Positions 32,089 to 43,084 of a stretch of DNA of 64,000 nucleotides are shown here, one piece after another (within the stretch, counting starts at the first letter, position 1; each line of letters opens with the position of its first letter). The notes below the pieces were generated by a model. The model had not been told where the DNA came from. It saw only the letters and a program-made list of their open reading frames with translations, and ran no database searches. The DNA is taken from NCBI GenBank assembly GCA_018268195.1, contig JAFDWZ010000026.1, forward strand, positions 1 to 64,000, read 5' to 3'. Both the position numbers and the translations under genes were made by a program. Source of the DNA: Bacteroidota bacterium (GTDB lineage: Bacteria; Bacteroidota; Bacteroidia; AKYH767-A; OLB10).

Positions 32089-33918
32089 TCAGCAGAAATT
32101 TTTCTGCCAGTAAGCAAGTGTGCACAACCTCCAGATAAGCACTGCATGTTGGTTGTTGCCTTTTCGGTATTCGTCCATCAGTGTTTTTATTTTCTTGTTA
32201 TTCAGAAAATCGAGTTTGCTGAAATCGGCATCTGTAAGTTGTGATAATGCACCGCGAAGCCATTTTACTTCTCCGGGAGTTACAAAACCTTTTTTATCTT
32301 TTCGCTTAACGATGGCTTCCGGCATTACCTCTTGCAAAGCCTGCCTCATCACCCACTTGGTGTATATGCCATTGGCTTTATCTTCATTGCGAAGCTTAAA
32401 TGCAAACTCTACCAAACGATGATCTAAAAATGGTACTCGCGATTCAACAGAGAAAGCCATGCTGTTACGATCCTCATACTGCAACAGTGTAGGAAGGCTG
32501 GTAGTAAACATCAGGTGATATAAAAAATTATCCGTGCAATTACCATCCACCTCGCCTAACTCGAAAGGTGTGCCTGACTCATTGCTCAGAAAAGGAAAAT
32601 AATGATGATATTCGAGTGTATATAATTGCTCTTCGTTTTTCAAAAGGCTGAGTATGCTTTTGCCAAAGTGGGCAAGCGTTTTGGTTACCGACAACTGTTG
32701 ATTTTTTGCTAACGAACCTGTAAGACTTATGGCCTTACCAATGCGAAATGCAGAAATTAGGTCGGCCACCATGCGATAAGCAGTGTGATTATATCCTGCA
32801 AGATATTCATCAGCGCCTTGCCCGTCAAGCACCACCTTGATATTGTTTTCTGCAATGAGTTTCATCAGAAAATACTGCGAAATAAAAGAAGAGCCTGTTG
32901 CAGGTACATCTGCATGATAAAGTGCATGATGAAAATGCTCTCTGATATTTTCTTCAGAAGGAGTAAAATAATGGGGTTGCAGTGAAGGGAATTTATCGCA
33001 TACAGCTTTTACAAATGGTCGTTCATCCACATCGCCTTTTCCCTCATAGTAAATGCTGAACGTTGAATAAGGCAACTTAGGTTGCTGATGCTGTACCATA
33101 CTTACAATGGCACTGCTGTCGAGGCCTCCGCTGAGGCAACTCCCAACAGCCACATCGCTGCGCATGTGCAACTTCACCGACTCATTAAAAAGCTGAAAAA
33201 AACGTTCTTTCTTTTCTTCTGCAGTTAAATTAAGATAATGGCCGGTCTGAATATTCCAGTATCGAAAAATTTTCAGCTCTCCGCTTTTTTGGTTGAACAA
33301 CAGATTGTGTGCTGCCGGCAACGCTTTCAGTTTACTGAAGTACGTTTCATCATAATAACTTGTCCAGCCCATTTGCAAACCACGGCTTACCTGCATGGTA
33401 TTGATGTCGTTAGAAAATAACGGACAAGGTTTTAAAGCTTTATACTCCGAACCGAAATAAAAAGCACCCGACTGATGAAGGTAATAAAATGGTTTGATGC
33501 CGAAGCGGTCGCGTGAGCAAAATAGTTCTTCATTCAATTCATCCCAGATGGCAAATGCCCACATCCCCATAAACCGGTTAACACAATCTTTTCCCCACTG
33601 ATGGTAGGCATGCAAAATAACTTCTGTATCACTCCTGGTCCTGAAATGCGCTCCTGATTTTTCAAGCTCTGATTTCAGTTCTAAATAATTATAAATTTCG
33701 CCATTGTAAACGATGGTCAGATGCTCATGCTGCATTGGCTGGTCAGCATCATGGCTCAGGTCAATAATGCTCAGGCGATTGTGACCTAAATACACATTGT
33801 TTTTTACAAAAGTGTGCCTTGCATCGGGGCCGCGATGTGCAATATTTTCAAGCATTACCGAAAGCATTTTATCTCCGTCAGTAATTTTATCATCAATAAA
33901 GCCTGCAATACCGCACAT
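32089..33918 (-). CDS. asnB: Asparagine synthetase, glutamine-hydrolysing
   Basis: This 609-residue protein has an N-terminal class II glutamine amidotransferase domain (nucleophile C2 in MCGIAGFIDD; RLSIIDLS; NGEIYNY), about 1-215. A C-terminal ATP-pyrophosphatase synthetase domain follows, with the PP-loop SGGLDSS near residue 265. It makes asparagine from aspartate, glutamine and ATP. Many Bacteroidota also use AsnB-like proteins in surface glycan or peptide pathways, but nothing here points away from amino-acid synthesis. It has its own -7 box. Confidence 0.93.
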   Translation of the reverse strand: MCGIAGFIDDKITDGDKMLSVMLENIAHRGPDARHTFVKNNVYLGHNRLSIIDLSHDADQPMQHEHLTIVYNGEIYNYLELKSELEKSGAHFRTRSDTEVILHAYHQWGKDCVNRFMGMWAFAIWDELNEELFCSRDRFGIKPFYYLHQSGAFYFGSEYKALKPCPLFSNDINTMQVSRGLQMGWTSYYDETYFSKLKALPAAHNLLFNQKSGELKIFRYWNIQTGHYLNLTAEEKKERFFQLFNESVKLHMRSDVAVGSCLSGGLDSSAIVSMVQHQQPKLPYSTFSIYYEGKGDVDERPFVKAVCDKFPSLQPHYFTPSEENIREHFHHALYHADVPATGSSFISQYFLMKLIAENNIKVVLDGQGADEYLAGYNHTAYRMVADLISAFRIGKAISLTGSLAKNQQLSVTKTLAHFGKSILSLLKNEEQLYTLEYHHYFPFLSNESGTPFELGEVDGNCTDNFLYHLMFTTSLPTLLQYEDRNSMAFSVESRVPFLDHRLVEFAFKLRNEDKANGIYTKWVMRQALQEVMPEAIVKRKDKKGFVTPGEVKWLRGALSQLTDADFSKLDFLNNKKIKTLMDEYRKGNNQHAVLIWRLCTLAYWQKNFC

Positions 33919-34860: not shown

Positions 34861-35607
34861 ATGAAACTACTTGAAAATAAGGTAATACTGATTACTGGCG
34901 CTTCGCGTGGCATTGGCCGTGGCATAGCATTACAACTGGCAGCGCACGGTGCACACGTGGCATTCACCTTTCTTTCTTCTCCTGAAAAAGGGCTTCAACT
35001 CGAAAATGAACTCAAAAGCAATGGTGTGAAAGCTAAAGGTTATCAAAGTGATGCTTCGCAGTTTGAAGCTGCTGAAAAACTCATCAATCAGGTACTTGCC
35101 GATTTCGGACAAATTGATGTACTGGTGAATAATGCCGGTATCACTCGCGATAATCTGCTCATGCGTATGACGGAAGAACAGTTTGACGAAGTCATTCGCA
35201 CCAATCTCAAATCGTGTTTTAATACTACCAAACACATTCAGAAATCAATGCTCAAACAGCGCTCCGGTTCTATCATCAATATCACTTCAGTAGTTGGCGA
35301 AAAAGGAAATGCAGGTCAGGCTAATTATGCCGCAAGTAAGGCCGGTATGATTGGTTTTACCAAATCTGTTGCCCTTGAATTAGGCTCACGCAACATACGA
35401 TGCAATGCCATAGCACCCGGATTTATTGAAACGGAAATGACGGCAGCTCTCGATCCTGCAACCGTAAAAGGATGGACTGATGCCATACCTATGAAACGCG
35501 GAGGAACAGTTGATGATATTGCCAATGCAGTATTGTTTTTTGCGTCAGACCTGAGTACTTACGTAACCGGACAAGTATTGCACGTAAATGGCGGAATGTA
35601 CACCTGA
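34861..35607 (+). CDS. fabG: 3-oxoacyl-ACP reductase-type SDR
   Basis: This 248-residue short-chain dehydrogenase has the NADPH motif GASRGIGRG (about 12-20), the NNAG motif, the catalytic serine in NITSVVG and Y-x3-K in NYAASKAG. Its C-terminus (GQVLHVNGGMYT) is typical of FabG, which reduces 3-oxoacyl-ACP in fatty-acid synthesis. It lies upstream of a methyltransferase and an NRPS-PKS megasynthase that lacks a ketoreductase domain, so it may act on that pathway instead of, or besides, general lipid synthesis. The next gene starts 9 nt after its stop. Confidence 0.9.
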   Translation: MKLLENKVILITGASRGIGRGIALQLAAHGAHVAFTFLSSPEKGLQLENELKSNGVKAKGYQSDASQFEAAEKLINQVLADFGQIDVLVNNAGITRDNLLMRMTEEQFDEVIRTNLKSCFNTTKHIQKSMLKQRSGSIINITSVVGEKGNAGQANYAASKAGMIGFTKSVALELGSRNIRCNAIAPGFIETEMTAALDPATVKGWTDAIPMKRGGTVDDIANAVLFFASDLSTYVTGQVLHVNGGMYT

Positions 35608-35616
35608 TGCAAGGTG

Positions 35617-36258
35617 ATGAAATATAATCCACCCCTCTACTTCCATTTTCTTACACCCGTTTACGACAGTTTATTCCGTCTGTTGCTGCCTTCTGAAAAA
35701 ATCAGAAAAACTTCAATTCAGTTGCTTGACTACGATATTCCGACAGATATTGTTGAATTAGGTTCGGGTACCGGAGCACTTACATTGCCACTTGCCAAAC
35801 AATTTCCTTCTTGCAGAATTTCTGCTGTAGATATTGACCGTAAATCAAATGCCATTCTTCATAAAAAAATATGGAAGAACTCCATTGGAAACGTGCAGGT
35901 ACAGGAGGCATTGTCCTACCATCTTCCATTTGAAACAGGCAGTGTTAGTGTCGTCTTTGCAAGTTTACTTTTTTGTAACCTTCCGCTTAAACTAAAGTAT
36001 GATACGATGCAGGAAGCCAAACGTGTATTGCACAAAAATGGAAAACTGCTGATTACCGAGTGGGGGCCGCCTCTGACATTGCTTTCTAAAACCGGATTTA
36101 TGGTTCTTAAAGCCATTGGCCGAAACAATATTACAGACCTAAGTAACGGAATGTTGCCCAATTACCTGAAAGCAAATGGTTTTACATGCTCTCAGAAACA
36201 AACCCTAAACACTTTGTTTGGCACCCTATATTTCTATCAGGCTGAAAAATTAACCTGA
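35617..36258 (+). CDS. Class I SAM-dependent methyltransferase
   Basis: The protein has 213 residues from the ATG at 35617; a GTG one codon upstream is equally in frame. SAM-binding motif I is VELGSGTGALTLPLA, followed by the acidic residue region AVDID and later motifs (VVFASLLFCNLP, GKLLITEWGPP). It resembles small-molecule or lipid methyltransferases of the UbiE/PmtA type. Its position between the SDR and the megasynthase suggests it could methylate the megasynthase product, but a phospholipid or quinone substrate is possible. A 136-bp gap follows with no clear terminator. Confidence 0.82.
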   Translation: MKYNPPLYFHFLTPVYDSLFRLLLPSEKIRKTSIQLLDYDIPTDIVELGSGTGALTLPLAKQFPSCRISAVDIDRKSNAILHKKIWKNSIGNVQVQEALSYHLPFETGSVSVVFASLLFCNLPLKLKYDTMQEAKRVLHKNGKLLITEWGPPLTLLSKTGFMVLKAIGRNNITDLSNGMLPNYLKANGFTCSQKQTLNTLFGTLYFYQAEKLT

Positions 36259-36394: not shown

Positions 36395-39300
36395 ATGAAA
36401 TCGCATCATTATCATTTCCCTAAAGCTGTCTTTGATCAGAAAATGCTTCTGCCTGCTTTATTTGAAAAACAGGTTGCTGCAACTCCTGAACATACTGCCG
36501 TTTATTTCCATGAAGATAAACTTTCTTATTCTCAACTGAATGATAGAGCCAATGCACTGGCATCGCATCTCATTGCCAAAGGAGTAAAACCCGGCAGCCT
36601 GGTTGGGCTGTGTATTGAGCGCAGCTGCAATTTAATTGCAGGTGTATTGGGAATACTTAAAACCGGTGCCGGTTATGTTCCTCTCGACCCGGAATATCCG
36701 CAAGAGCGTTTGCTGTATATGATGGAAACTGCGCAAATGCCGTTACTGGTGACCAACAAAAACCTATCAGGAAAATTACCCGAAGGTAAAACCGAAAAAA
36801 TTTTAATAGAAGATGTACCTCAGAATAACAAACCTGTTGAAGTAAAACACTCTTCTGATGATATTGCTTATGTGCTTTTCACGAGCGGAAGTACAGGCAT
36901 GCCAAAAGGTGTGGCTATGCCACATAAACCATTGGTGAACCTGATTACCTGGCAGTTGAAAAACACGTCTGTACTTGAAGGTGGAAAAACCTTGCAGTTT
37001 GCCCCTATCAGTTTTGACGTTTCGTTTCAGGAAATATTTTCAACGCTGAGCAGTGGAGGCACTCTGGTAATGATAGAAGATGATTTACGTTTGAATGCCG
37101 TAAATCTTTTGAATTTTGTTTCAAAGCAAAAAATCAACCGCCTGTTTCTTCCATTTATTGCCTTACAGCATTTATGTGAAGTGGCTGAAAACTTCACGGA
37201 CGACCTGAGTTCTCTCATAGAAATTATAACAGCAGGTGAGCAATTGCAAAGTACTGCCTTTATCAAAAACTTCTTCCGTAAGAACAAACAATGCACACTA
37301 TGGAATCATTATGGTCCTACCGAAGGGCATGTGGTTACAGCTTATCAATTGCCGGCCAATCCTGATGAATGGGCTGCTTTGCCATCCATTGGCAAACCTA
37401 TTGACAATGCTGAAATTTATATTCTTGACGAAAACGGGAATGCAATAGATACACATGAAGGCGAACTTTTTATTGGAGGTATAAGCGTAGCGAAAGGCTA
37501 CCTGAACAGAGATGATTTGACCGCTGAAAGATTTATCATCAATCCTTTTGAAAATACACAGGGAAAATATTTTTACAAAACAGGCGACCTTGCAAAGTAT
37601 CTTCCTGACGGAAATATCGAATACTTGGGACGAATTGATGGCCAGGTAAAAATCAGAGGTTATAGAATTGAACTTGGAGAAATTGAACTGACATTAGATA
37701 AACATGACTCTGTAAAACAGGCAGTGGTAGTGGCACGTGAAGATGAGCCTGGCGATAAAAGGTTAGTGGCATACTGCCTTGCCGAAGAAGGAAAAAATAT
37801 CAGCACCGGTGAACTGCGAAAATTTTTATCTGATAAATTACCTGAATACATGATGCCTTCGGCATTTGTTAAGGTTGAAGAATTTCCGCGCACACCATCA
37901 GGAAAAATTGACCGCAGAAATTTGCCGGCACCATCTAACAAGCGCCCCGACCTGAACAATGTATTTGTAGCTCCTGAAACAGAGTTGCAGAAAATGTTTG
38001 CATCTAAATGGGGACAACTGCTGAAGATTGAAGGTATAGGCATACACGATAATTTCTTTGACCTGGGAGGAAACTCCCTCCTTGCTTTAAAATTTATTGC
38101 TGAATTACGTCAGGAGCAAAATCTTGATTTACCTGTTGTAAAAATGTATCAGCATCCTGATATTTTTTCACTGACAAAATTTTTAAGCAACGAAGATTCG
38201 TCAAAGTCATATTTTCAGTCGGCACAGGAGCGCTTTGCCGGAGGAGTTAAAGGTAAAATTGAAACGATAGAAGATGGCATTGCCGTTATTGGTATGAGTG
38301 GGCGTTTTCCGGGAGCTAAAAATGTGGACGAGTTATGGAAAATTTTGTTGGAAGGAAAAGAAACTGTTTCGTTTTTCAGGAAAGAAGAACTGGATACAGC
38401 CATCAGTGCAGAAGATAAAAATGATCCTTCTTATGTTGCGGTGCGTGGTGTTATTGCTGATGCAGATAAATTTGATGCACCATTTTTCAATGTAAACCCA
38501 CGTCTGGCCGAAGTTACCGATCCGCAACAACGAATTTTTCTTGAAATAGCATGGGAAGCATTTGAAAATGCAGGATACTGTCCGGGAAATTATAACGGGC
38601 TGATAGGAATATTTGCCGGTATGGGCAACAACACCTACTATCCCAATAATGTGTTTCATAACAAGGAAGCCATAAACCGTGTGGGCACATTTCAAACCAT
38701 GACTGCCAACGAAAAAGATTACATAGCGACACGTGTGGCTTATGAATTTAACACCAAAGGCCCGGGCTTGAGCATACATACTGCCTGCTCTACTTCGCTT
38801 ACGGCAGTAACTATTGCGTATGAGAGTTTGTTGAACAGAGAATGTGATATGGCACTTGCCGGAGGTATAGCTATTACCGTACCGGTGAACAGCGGACATA
38901 TTTATAATGAAGGTGGAATGTTCAGTAAGGACGGACATACCCGCGCCTTTGATGCAGATGCCACAGGCACCGTTTTCAGTGATGGTGCAGGTGCAGTAAT
39001 ACTGAAACGATATAAAGATGCCGTTAATGACGGTGATGAGATTTACGCAGTCATTCGTGGTGCAGCATTAAACAATGACGGAAGTGACAAAGCAAGTTTT
39101 ACGGCTCCGAGTGTGGAAGGTCAGGCACAGGTTGTTGCTATGGCACAGGCTAAAGCCGGAGTGGAACCCGAATCTATTTCCTACATTGAAACACATGGTA
39201 CTGCCACACCTTTAGGCGACCCGATAGAAATTGAAGCACTCACACAGGCATTCAGAAGTAAAACAGATAAAAAACAATTCTGTGCAGTAGGTTCAATAAA

Positions 39301-42300
39301 AACCAACATTGGCCACCTCACTCCTGCTGCCGGTGTTACGGGACTGATAAAAACATGTCTGGCTTTAAAACACAAAATTTTGCCGGCCTCACTTAATTAT
39401 AAAAAATCTAACCCTGCAATTGATTTTGAGAATTCACCTTTTTATGTCAATGCAACAAAAAAAGAATGGAAAAGTGCTGACGGAAAACCATTGCGTGCAG
39501 GAGTAAGTTCATTTGGTGTAGGTGGCACCAATGCACACGTTGTTTTGGAAGAAGCTCCCTCCCGAATTGATTCAGGTATTGCCCGACAGAAACATTTGTT
39601 TGTGTTATCAGCAAAAACAAAGACTGCGCTGGATGCTGCCACAAAGAATCTAAAATCATTTTTTGAAAAAAATAAAGAAGTAAACCTTGCTGATGCAGCC
39701 TACACATTGCAGACAGGAAGAAAACATTTTAACCATCGCAGAATAATAGTTGGTGGAACCATTGCTGAATTCAATGCTGTGGTTGATCAATCAAATCCGA
39801 AAAAAACATCTGCCCGTGAGCTCACTTCAGGGAACCCTGAAATCATATTTATGTTTCCTGGCCAAGGCTCGCAATATGTAAATATGGGCAAGAATCTTTA
39901 TGACGATGAAATCGTTTTTAAAGACGCTGTTGACACATGTTGCAACATACTTCAGCAGCATTTAGGTTTGGATTTACGCACGTTGCTATTTCCCAAAGAT
40001 GCAGAAACAGAAAAAGCAGCAAACATGCTTCGCGAAACTGCTTATACACAACCTGCACTGTTCACCATTGGTTATGCGCTGGCAAAGCTTTGGATGAGTT
40101 GGGGCATTCAACCCAAAGGTTTTATTGGTCATAGTATCGGTGAATTTGCAGCTGCACATCTGGCAGGCGTATTTTCTTTGGAAGATGCGCTGATGTTGGT
40201 TGCCAACAGAGGAAGAATGATGCAAGATTTACCCAGAGGAAGCATGCTGAGCGTAAGGTTGCCTGCTGCTGAAATAGAAAAAGAACTGGATGCATCATGC
40301 TCCATTGCTGCCAATAACGGCCCTGCCCTTTGCGTAGTTGCCGGCCCCACAGATAAAATAGAAGCATTACGAATAAGTCTTGAAAAACGTGAAATAACAG
40401 CCAAACTGTTAGTTACGTCTCATGCCTTCCATTCACCTATGATGGAGCCTATGCTGAAACCTTTTCTTGAAAAAGTAAAATCAGTAAGGCTGAATAAACC
40501 TTCCATTCCCTTTGTTTCTACTGCTACTTCCAAATGGATAACCGATGAGGAAGCAACAAACCCTGAATACTGGGTACACCATGTGAGAGCAACAGTTCGC
40601 TTTGCCGAAGGCATACAAACCTTATGGAATGAAAAACCACAACGTGTTTTATTGGAATGCGGGCCACGGAATACTGCAACAATGCTGGCAAAGCAACAAG
40701 CCAAAGAACCTGCTAAACAAATAGCAATAGCTTCTCTGAGTGATAATGCTGAGAATTATGCTGAGTGGGAGCAAATGCTTTTTGCTGTAGGGCAACTGTG
40801 GATGTCAGGCGCTGAAATAGACTGGAAGAATTTTTACGCTCTGGAAAAGAGAAAAAAAGTAGCTCTTCCTACCTACCCTTTTGAAAAGAAAAGATACTGG
40901 CTTGACCCTGTAACAACAAATATTCAAACATCATTTATAAACCACGATTTAATGCAGCAACAGCAGTTTATACCAAATGCTTTGCCGCATACTTCATCAG
41001 ATTTATCAGTAACAAAAAACAACATGAATAGAAAAGACCTTTTAACAGCAGAATTAAAATCCATTCTTGAAGAATCATCGGGAATGGAACTGGGAAATGA
41101 CTCTAACGCAACATTTATTGAATTAGGACTGGATTCATTATTCCTCACACAGGCTGCACTTACCATCAGCAAAAAGTATGGTGTGAAAATTACATTCAGA
41201 CAATTAAACGAAGATTTTTCTTCGTTAAATGCATTAGCAACGCACTTAGACAGCAACCTTCCGGCAGATGCAATGCCTGCGGTTGCAGCTCCTCAGTCAC
41301 AACCTGCCATGCAACCAATGGCACCACAGAATATTCAGATGCAACAGGGAATGAACCCTATGCAGATGATGATGATGCAACAAATGCAGATGATGCAAAT
41401 GATGATGCAGCAAATGTCGCAACCTGTGCAAAGCGTAGCACCATCAGTGCAAGCTCATATCGAAAAGGCTGTTGAAATAAAATCGCATACCAAGAAAGAT
41501 GACATCAGCGAAAATGAAAAAGCTGAACTTGCAAAACCATTTGGTGCAATAGCACGCATAGAAAAAGCCGCTTCATCCGATATCAATGAAAAACAATCGG
41601 CATGGTTGAATAAATTTGTAGATGATTACACTAAAAAAACGGCAAAGAGCAAACAATACTGTCAGCAATATCGCAGTGTACTTGCCGACCCGCGTGTGGT
41701 AACCGGATTCAAACCTGCACTCAAAGAAATTATTTATCAGGTAGTAGTAGAAAAATCCAAAGGAGTTAACTTCTGGGATTTGGATGGCAACAAATATGTT
41801 GACGTGCTGAATGGTTTCGGTTCCAACTTCTTTGGATGGGGAAGCGATGTGCTGATGAATGTGTGGAAAAATCAATTAGAAACAGGCATTGAACTCGGAC
41901 CACAAACACCTCTTGCAGGTGAATGTGCTAAGCTGATGTGTGAAATCACCGGCTACGACCGTGCAGGATTTTGCAACACAGGGTCAGAAGCTGTGCTGGG
42001 TGCTATGCGTATTGCACGCACCGTTACCGGACGAAATCTGATAGTTTGCTTCAATGGTTCGTATCATGGAATAAATGATGAAGTGATTGTGCGTGGTACT
42101 AAAAAGTTAAAATCATTTCCTGCAGCTGCGGGAATTATGCCTGAATCTGTTGAGAACATGTTGGTGTTGGATTATGGTACTGATGAAAGCCTGCAAATTA
42201 TTAAAGAGCGAATAGATGAAATTGCTGCCGTAATGATTGAACCTATTCAATCGCGCAGAGCTGATTTTCATCCAAAAGAATTTATTCACGAAGTAAGAAA

Positions 42301-43084
42301 AATTACTAAAGAAAATAATGTGCTGATGATTTTTGACGAAGTCATCACAGGATTCCGCCTGCGTTTGGGAGGTGCACAGGAGTATTACGGAGTAGATGCC
42401 GACCTGAGTACTTATGGAAAAGTAATCGGAGGTAACATGCCTATAGGTGCTATTGCAGGTCGCAAGCCATACATGGATGCACTCGATGGAGGTTTCTGGC
42501 AATATGGAGATCATTCTATTCCTGAAGTAGGCGTAACTTATTTTGCAGGAACATTTGTGCGTCATCCTCTGGCAATGGCAGCAATGAAAGAAGTACTTAC
42601 CTATCTGAAAAAAGAAGGAAAACCACTTTACGAAAAACTAAATTCAAAAACACAGCGACTGGTTGACGAAGTAAATGCCCACAGCAAAAAACTTGGCTCT
42701 CCGTTTAAGCTTGTAAATTTTGGATCGCTGTTTAAAGGTAAATGGGAAACTGAACCTCATTACACGGAATTGCTTTTCGCTATGATGCGCTTTAAAGGTG
42801 TACATATCATGGATGGATTTCCCTGTTTTCTGACGCTGGCTTTCACCGATGCCGATGTGGATTTTGTGATTGCTAAGTTTAAAGAAAGCCTTGATGAACT
42901 TTGTACAATAGGATTTATTCCTACAACCGTTGCAAGTTCCGAATCAACCAATGGATATGCTTCCAATGGCAACGGTCAGCATCCGCCAATACCGGGTGCT
43001 AAATTGGGTAAGGATGCCAATGGTAATCCTGCATGGTTCATCTCAGATCCGGAACGACCCGGAAAATATTTGTTGGTGAAATAA
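36395..43084 (+). CDS. Hybrid NRPS-PKS megasynthase: A(Pro?)-PCP-KS-AT-ACP-aminotransferase
   Basis: This 2229-residue protein has the following domains in order. Adenylation (about 20-510): FTSGSTGMPKG, NHYGPTE, GDLAKYLPDG, PSGKIDRR. Peptidyl carrier with S561 (DLGGNSLL). Ketosynthase (about 625-1060) with the complete triad C798, H934, H974. Acyltransferase (about 1135-1440) with S1247 (GHSIGE) and HAFH, the malonyl-type motif. Acyl carrier with S1581 (LGLDSL). A Met/Gln-rich linker (about 1632-1686). Class III PLP aminotransferase (about 1740-2180) with K2009. The adenylation pocket reads DVQFIAHVVK by hand alignment to GrsA, one residue from the proline code DVQLIAHVV. Predicted chemistry: prolyl starter, one malonyl extension, transamination of the beta-ketone. 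There is no condensation, ketoreductase or thioesterase domain. The aminotransferase arrangement resembles mycosubtilin MycA. Confidence 0.93.
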   Translation: MKSHHYHFPKAVFDQKMLLPALFEKQVAATPEHTAVYFHEDKLSYSQLNDRANALASHLIAKGVKPGSLVGLCIERSCNLIAGVLGILKTGAGYVPLDPEYPQERLLYMMETAQMPLLVTNKNLSGKLPEGKTEKILIEDVPQNNKPVEVKHSSDDIAYVLFTSGSTGMPKGVAMPHKPLVNLITWQLKNTSVLEGGKTLQFAPISFDVSFQEIFSTLSSGGTLVMIEDDLRLNAVNLLNFVSKQKINRLFLPFIALQHLCEVAENFTDDLSSLIEIITAGEQLQSTAFIKNFFRKNKQCTLWNHYGPTEGHVVTAYQLPANPDEWAALPSIGKPIDNAEIYILDENGNAIDTHEGELFIGGISVAKGYLNRDDLTAERFIINPFENTQGKYFYKTGDLAKYLPDGNIEYLGRIDGQVKIRGYRIELGEIELTLDKHDSVKQAVVVAREDEPGDKRLVAYCLAEEGKNISTGELRKFLSDKLPEYMMPSAFVKVEEFPRTPSGKIDRRNLPAPSNKRPDLNNVFVAPETELQKMFASKWGQLLKIEGIGIHDNFFDLGGNSLLALKFIAELRQEQNLDLPVVKMYQHPDIFSLTKFLSNEDSSKSYFQSAQERFAGGVKGKIETIEDGIAVIGMSGRFPGAKNVDELWKILLEGKETVSFFRKEELDTAISAEDKNDPSYVAVRGVIADADKFDAPFFNVNPRLAEVTDPQQRIFLEIAWEAFENAGYCPGNYNGLIGIFAGMGNNTYYPNNVFHNKEAINRVGTFQTMTANEKDYIATRVAYEFNTKGPGLSIHTACSTSLTAVTIAYESLLNRECDMALAGGIAITVPVNSGHIYNEGGMFSKDGHTRAFDADATGTVFSDGAGAVILKRYKDAVNDGDEIYAVIRGAALNNDGSDKASFTAPSVEGQAQVVAMAQAKAGVEPESISYIETHGTATPLGDPIEIEALTQAFRSKTDKKQFCAVGSIKTNIGHLTPAAGVTGLIKTCLALKHKILPASLNYKKSNPAIDFENSPFYVNATKKEWKSADGKPLRAGVSSFGVGGTNAHVVLEEAPSRIDSGIARQKHLFVLSAKTKTALDAATKNLKSFFEKNKEVNLADAAYTLQTGRKHFNHRRIIVGGTIAEFNAVVDQSNPKKTSARELTSGNPEIIFMFPGQGSQYVNMGKNLYDDEIVFKDAVDTCCNILQQHLGLDLRTLLFPKDAETEKAANMLRETAYTQPALFTIGYALAKLWMSWGIQPKGFIGHSIGEFAAAHLAGVFSLEDALMLVANRGRMMQDLPRGSMLSVRLPAAEIEKELDASCSIAANNGPALCVVAGPTDKIEALRISLEKREITAKLLVTSHAFHSPMMEPMLKPFLEKVKSVRLNKPSIPFVSTATSKWITDEEATNPEYWVHHVRATVRFAEGIQTLWNEKPQRVLLECGPRNTATMLAKQQAKEPAKQIAIASLSDNAENYAEWEQMLFAVGQLWMSGAEIDWKNFYALEKRKKVALPTYPFEKKRYWLDPVTTNIQTSFINHDLMQQQQFIPNALPHTSSDLSVTKNNMNRKDLLTAELKSILEESSGMELGNDSNATFIELGLDSLFLTQAALTISKKYGVKITFRQLNEDFSSLNALATHLDSNLPADAMPAVAAPQSQPAMQPMAPQNIQMQQGMNPMQMMMMQQMQMMQMMMQQMSQPVQSVAPSVQAHIEKAVEIKSHTKKDDISENEKAELAKPFGAIARIEKAASSDINEKQSAWLNKFVDDYTKKTAKSKQYCQQYRSVLADPRVVTGFKPALKEIIYQVVVEKSKGVNFWDLDGNKYVDVLNGFGSNFFGWGSDVLMNVWKNQLETGIELGPQTPLAGECAKLMCEITGYDRAGFCNTGSEAVLGAMRIARTVTGRNLIVCFNGSYHGINDEVIVRGTKKLKSFPAAAGIMPESVENMLVLDYGTDESLQIIKERIDEIAAVMIEPIQSRRADFHPKEFIHEVRKITKENNVLMIFDEVITGFRLRLGGAQEYYGVDADLSTYGKVIGGNMPIGAIAGRKPYMDALDGGFWQYGDHSIPEVGVTYFAGTFVRHPLAMAAMKEVLTYLKKEGKPLYEKLNSKTQRLVDEVNAHSKKLGSPFKLVNFGSLFKGKWETEPHYTELLFAMMRFKGVHIMDGFPCFLTLAFTDADVDFVIAKFKESLDELCTIGFIPTTVASSESTNGYASNGNGQHPPIPGAKLGKDANGNPAWFISDPERPGKYLLVK

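Follow-up and report, generated by a model that had tools for sequence, protein, structure and literature searches.

The megasynthase gene and its domains

The window, meaning the whole 64,000-nucleotide stretch of Bacteroidota DNA that was analysed, contains one long gene for an NRPS-PKS-aminotransferase megasynthase, preceded on the same strand by two short genes. The features are as follows, with domain limits given as residues of the protein.

34861-35607, same strand as the megasynthase, upstream: short-chain reductase, passing the cut-off of a FabG model
35614-36258, same strand, directly upstream of the megasynthase: methyltransferase
36395..43084, + strand: megasynthase, A-PCP-KS-AT-ACP-AMT, 2229 aa, a single intact ORF (Pfam)
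36461..37906, + strand: adenylation (A) domain, residues 23-504, code DVQFIAHVVK, predicted for proline (Pfam, pocket code, structure matches)
38006..38182, + strand: peptidyl carrier domain (PCP), residues 538-596, S561 (Pfam, homologue alignment)
38276..39742, + strand: ketosynthase (KS) with C-terminal extension, residues 628-1116, C798/H934/H974 (Pfam, homologue alignment)
39845..40756, + strand: acyltransferase (AT), residues 1151-1454, S1247, HAFH, malonyl type (Pfam, homologue alignment)
41057..41269, + strand: acyl carrier domain (ACP), about residues 1555-1625, limits approximate, S1581 (one of two PP-binding stretches, homologue alignment)
41585..42925, + strand: MycA-type class III aminotransferase (AMT), residues 1731-2177, D1981, K2009 (Pfam, structure matches, homologue alignment)
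42977..43081, + strand: conserved C-terminal tail PPIPGAKLGKDANGNPAWFISDPERPGKYLLVK, W2214 invariant in 84 homologues

The Pfam matches comprise AMP-binding (23-370), AMP-binding_C (429-504), two stretches of PP-binding, ketoacyl-synt (628-1002), Acyl_transf_1 (1151-1454) and Aminotran_3 (1782-2140), and they place a class III aminotransferase after KS, AT and ACP within one protein. This is the domain order that the sequence-only reading had proposed, and the active-site residues it had named, S561, C798/H934/H974, S1247 with HAFH, S1581 and K2009, were each found at the position claimed; across 84 aligned homologues the catalytic residues do not vary, and a single homologue has M for the F of HAFH. 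In acyltransferases the HAFH motif denotes the malonyl type. The megasynthase of one congener (G003, L076:6442-13039) is read as a pair of ORFs that overlap in different frames, which is either a frameshift or an assembly error.

The reductase and methyltransferase could be thought to belong to the pathway and to reduce or methylate its product, as they lie on the same strand directly upstream and their order is kept in two congeners (L074 and L075); however, the pair is not found beside the megasynthase or the NRPS described below in the other examined genera of the family, there is a gap of 136 bp between the methyltransferase and the megasynthase, and the reductase scores above the cut-off of a FabG model, so that we judged a tailoring role quite unlikely. 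A glutamine-hydrolysing asparagine synthase gene (32089-33918, - strand) lies 2.5 kb upstream of the megasynthase and occupies the same place in two congeners; close as it is to a line predicted below to use asparagine, it may be a housekeeping gene.

Predicted starter unit and chain extension

The pocket code DVQFIAHVVK, read earlier by hand, was reproduced, and its assignment to proline holds. As an independent test of the starter substrate, the pocket region alone (residues 205-340) was searched against solved structures, where it matched tyrocidine synthase 2 (1.6e-20) and gramicidin S synthase 2 (3.6e-20), the next match standing at 1e-8. Both of the matched domains activate proline. The code thus has the form DVQ[LFY]IAHVV with proline-activating domains as nearest relatives, and Val236 and Gln239 are marks of most proline signatures (PMC12283262). 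The corresponding modules of TycB and GrsB (PDB 9bfd_B, 8p5o_A) differ from the megasynthase at one of nine pocket positions, with L there and F here, and in those modules a C domain comes first and proline takes an internal position in the peptide, whereas no C domain precedes the A domain of the megasynthase, which makes proline its predicted starter.

The change from L to F at position 278 might instead indicate an analogue of proline, 4-methylproline or pipecolate for example, and the code DVQFIAHVV has been linked to 4-methylproline in cyanobacteria; but across the family position 278 is occupied by F or Y, genes for an analogue are not conserved alongside, and the only reproducible neighbours are the NRPS and a phosphopantetheinyl transferase, so that an analogue appears improbable. 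In every genome of the window's family where the code was read it follows DVQ[FY]IAHV[VIA]K, and by this measure module 1 stays predicted as proline-specific throughout the family; in loci beyond it the starter code varies widely.

Among solved structures the aminotransferase domain is closest to that of mycosubtilin MycA (PDB 6kfu, 6kfm), at 1.4e-114, the best aminomutase scoring 1.3e-51. It is thus nearer MycA than the free glutamate-1-semialdehyde aminomutases, and its PLP lysine, K2009, is invariant in the 84 homologues. Beta-transamination on a carrier protein is established for MycA, the starter of which is a fatty acid; that of the megasynthase would be an amino acid, and the product would therefore be a vicinal diamine. 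The residue checks and the nearest solved structures together support the proposed steps: activation of proline, extension by malonyl and beta-transamination of the MycA type. The A domain would load L-proline onto the PCP, the KS would join the prolyl and malonyl units to give 3-oxo-3-(pyrrolidin-2-yl)propanoyl-ACP, and the aminotransferase would convert this to 3-amino-3-(pyrrolidin-2-yl)propanoyl-ACP. Glutamine has been proposed as the amine donor from docking (PMC3870968).

A probable partner synthetase elsewhere in the genome

The megasynthase had been described as standing alone. For its contig this is accurate, as a search of that contig found no second NRPS or PKS gene, but it does not hold for the genome (G000; 3.0 Mb, 71 contigs), which contains exactly one condensation domain, on another contig (C44), within an NRPS of the order C-A-PCP-TE identified by genome search and domain matches. 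Two features thus lie outside the window.

C44:56253-60233 (L013:9254-13234): partner NRPS, C-A-PCP-TE
L013:13237-13920, directly after the partner NRPS: phosphopantetheinyl transferase

The megasynthase occurs in 18 of 61 related genomes (G000-G003, G005-G009, G011-G013, G015-G017, G019, G022 and G049), and the NRPS is found in exactly those 18, the only other matches of the NRPS search being to A domains at 32-33% in G052 and G056. The NRPS gene begins directly behind the megasynthase in ten of these 18 genomes. Of the 76 megasynthases in the genome_contigs set, 63 precede an NRPS that begins with a C domain (C-A-T-TE in 40 of these), and Spirosoma utsteinense carries all domains of both proteins in one protein of 3955 residues. 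Co-occurrence, adjacency and this fusion together lead us to regard the two proteins as one assembly line, the genes of which lie side by side in most relatives and have moved apart in the window's genus. In the window's genome the partner lies not directly downstream but on a different contig, and because each gene lies in the interior of a long contig (128.9 and 96.0 kb) they must be at least about 72 kb apart; in G008 both are on one contig, about 32 kb apart, which shows that the separation is real there.

We therefore think it likely that a two-protein NRPS-PKS line, predicted to couple a proline-derived diamine to asparagine, begins with the megasynthase and is completed by the NRPS on C44, although joint action in the window's genus is inferred from its relatives because the genes are far apart there. 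The separation could also mean that in this genus the megasynthase works on its own and its unit leaves without the NRPS, either as the free beta-amino acid or as 1-aminopyrrolizidin-3-one, a five-membered lactam that is chemically possible because the pyrrolidine nitrogen, in the gamma position relative to the thioester, could attack it; a copy in Spirosoma linguale, with no C-A-T-TE gene in the 31.5 kb examined, would fit such lone action. To this we assign little probability, as the NRPS is kept in all 18 megasynthase genomes, also where the genes are apart, and the tail ahead of the C domain has been conserved. On the two-protein reading that tail is a possible hand-over element towards the C domain of the partner.

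The Spirosoma linguale copy lies on plasmid pSLIN02 (L001:9739-16566), has the code DFWNIGMVHK and is found near copper-resistance genes; a copper-related role was considered and dropped, as this is a single instance. In Parapedobacter soli (L113:4841-18130) two A-T-KS-AT-T-AMT proteins with differing A codes stand in tandem.

Second residue, release and the wider family

The partner code is DLTKIGEVGK in G000, G001, G002, G012 and G016, a code included among the Asn-type signatures in PMC12283262. The partner of the window's genome would thus probably add asparagine, the codes of both A domains being predictions. In G003 and G006 the code is DLFNNALTYK, which we take to be an alanine code, and in G007, G009, G013, G017, G019 and G022 it is of the DILQLG type, read as glycine. 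Between the NRPSs of G000 and G003 identity is 64% in the C domain, 29% in the A core and 78% in the T-TE part, and between those of G000 and G012 it is 49%, 66% and 47%, respectively; G003 groups with G000-G002 in both the C and the T-TE trees (support 1.0 in both), whereas in the A-core tree G000-G002 group with G012 and G016 (support 1.0). These identities and groupings indicate that the A-domain core of the partner was swapped by recombination within the window's genus. Some Pedobacter and Parapedobacter partners (L099:11446-16680, L111:11459-16708, L103:11417-17056) contain an embedded methyltransferase (Pfam), which suggests N-methylated second residues; a glycine monooxygenase had been considered for an insert, some 400 residues long, in certain Pedobacter partners, and was dropped because Pfam identifies a methyltransferase.

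The sequence-only reading had ended the line at 3-amino-3-(pyrrolidin-2-yl)propanoyl-ACP, a point at which it should in fact continue, since the partner, with its asparagine code, is expected to add a second residue and to release the product. The C44 NRPS would accept the diamine unit in trans, couple asparagine and release [3-amino-3-(pyrrolidin-2-yl)propanoyl]-Asn (C11H20N4O4, [M+H]+ 273.156) or a cyclised form (255.145), and this linear or cyclised compound, not the free beta-amino acid, is the likely product predicted from the domains and codes. The mode of release is less certain: the partner TE reads GLCFGG and ESDNDSII, so that it has Cys for the Ser nucleophile, does not have the GDH histidine and departs from the pattern of a type I thioesterase, although Pfam Thioesterase nonetheless matches it at 4e-23, and these changes make normal release uncertain. 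The same two changes occur in G000-G003, G006, G008, G012 and G016, and Ser and His are both present in G009, G013, G017 and G019 (GGSFGG, GDHNSIF-like). The TE of the former genomes may hydrolyse its product, cyclise it or pass it on. The TE-like subgroup with GLC[FY][GS]G and no GDH histidine goes with asparagine or alanine codes in module 2 and is also seen in G008, which has no assigned code, but not with glycine codes.

The two-protein line is widespread in Bacteroidota yet patchy: of 295 genomes drawn from the class, 25 contained a match, and these fall in 10 of the 155 genera covered. In 2013 Pedobacter heparinus C6XWU5 was catalogued as A-CP-KS-AT-CP-PLP1, in a cluster predicted as Nrp-Mal-Gly-Pk, with the starter left unassigned (PMC3870968). 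Its domain order is identical to that of the megasynthase, its aminotransferase falls in the same GSA group, and its predicted glycine-adding partner resembles related loci in our analysis; the window's genus differs in its proline starter code, its asparagine second code and its separated genes. The architecture had thus already been catalogued before the sequence-only reading; open-licence papers (MIBiG not covered) yielded no described product or matching vicinal diamine, and the Bacteroidota genome-mining papers examined do not mention the aminotransferase line.

Among 91 neighbours within the window's family we found phosphopantetheinyl transferases and otherwise mostly housekeeping proteins, with no glycosyltransferase model among the 25 families listed, and the 103 neighbours at other Bacteroidota loci include glycosyltransferase family 2 (n=20), polysaccharide flippase (n=5) and polysaccharide export (n=2); the neighbours were chosen from the loci retrieved, some of which come from related species, so that these figures are counts and no statistical test. 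Export and sugar-transferase genes also lie close to a Variovorax locus. We suggest, tentatively and as a minority possibility, a Bacteroidota-wide class of small vicinal-diamine peptides made by the two-protein line, with variable starter and second residue and no described product, which in Pedobacter and allies may decorate surface polysaccharide, as the Pedobacter-type loci lie among glycosyltransferase and flippase genes.

What seemed a lone gene thereby becomes part of a defined and testable minimal line of about 3600 residues, present across Bacteroidota, that should make vicinal-diamine peptides. That nature has replaced the A core but not C and T-TE among close relatives marks recombination borders of the kind sought by enzyme engineers, and the separated genes of the window's genus illustrate that an assembly line can go unnoticed once its genes move apart.
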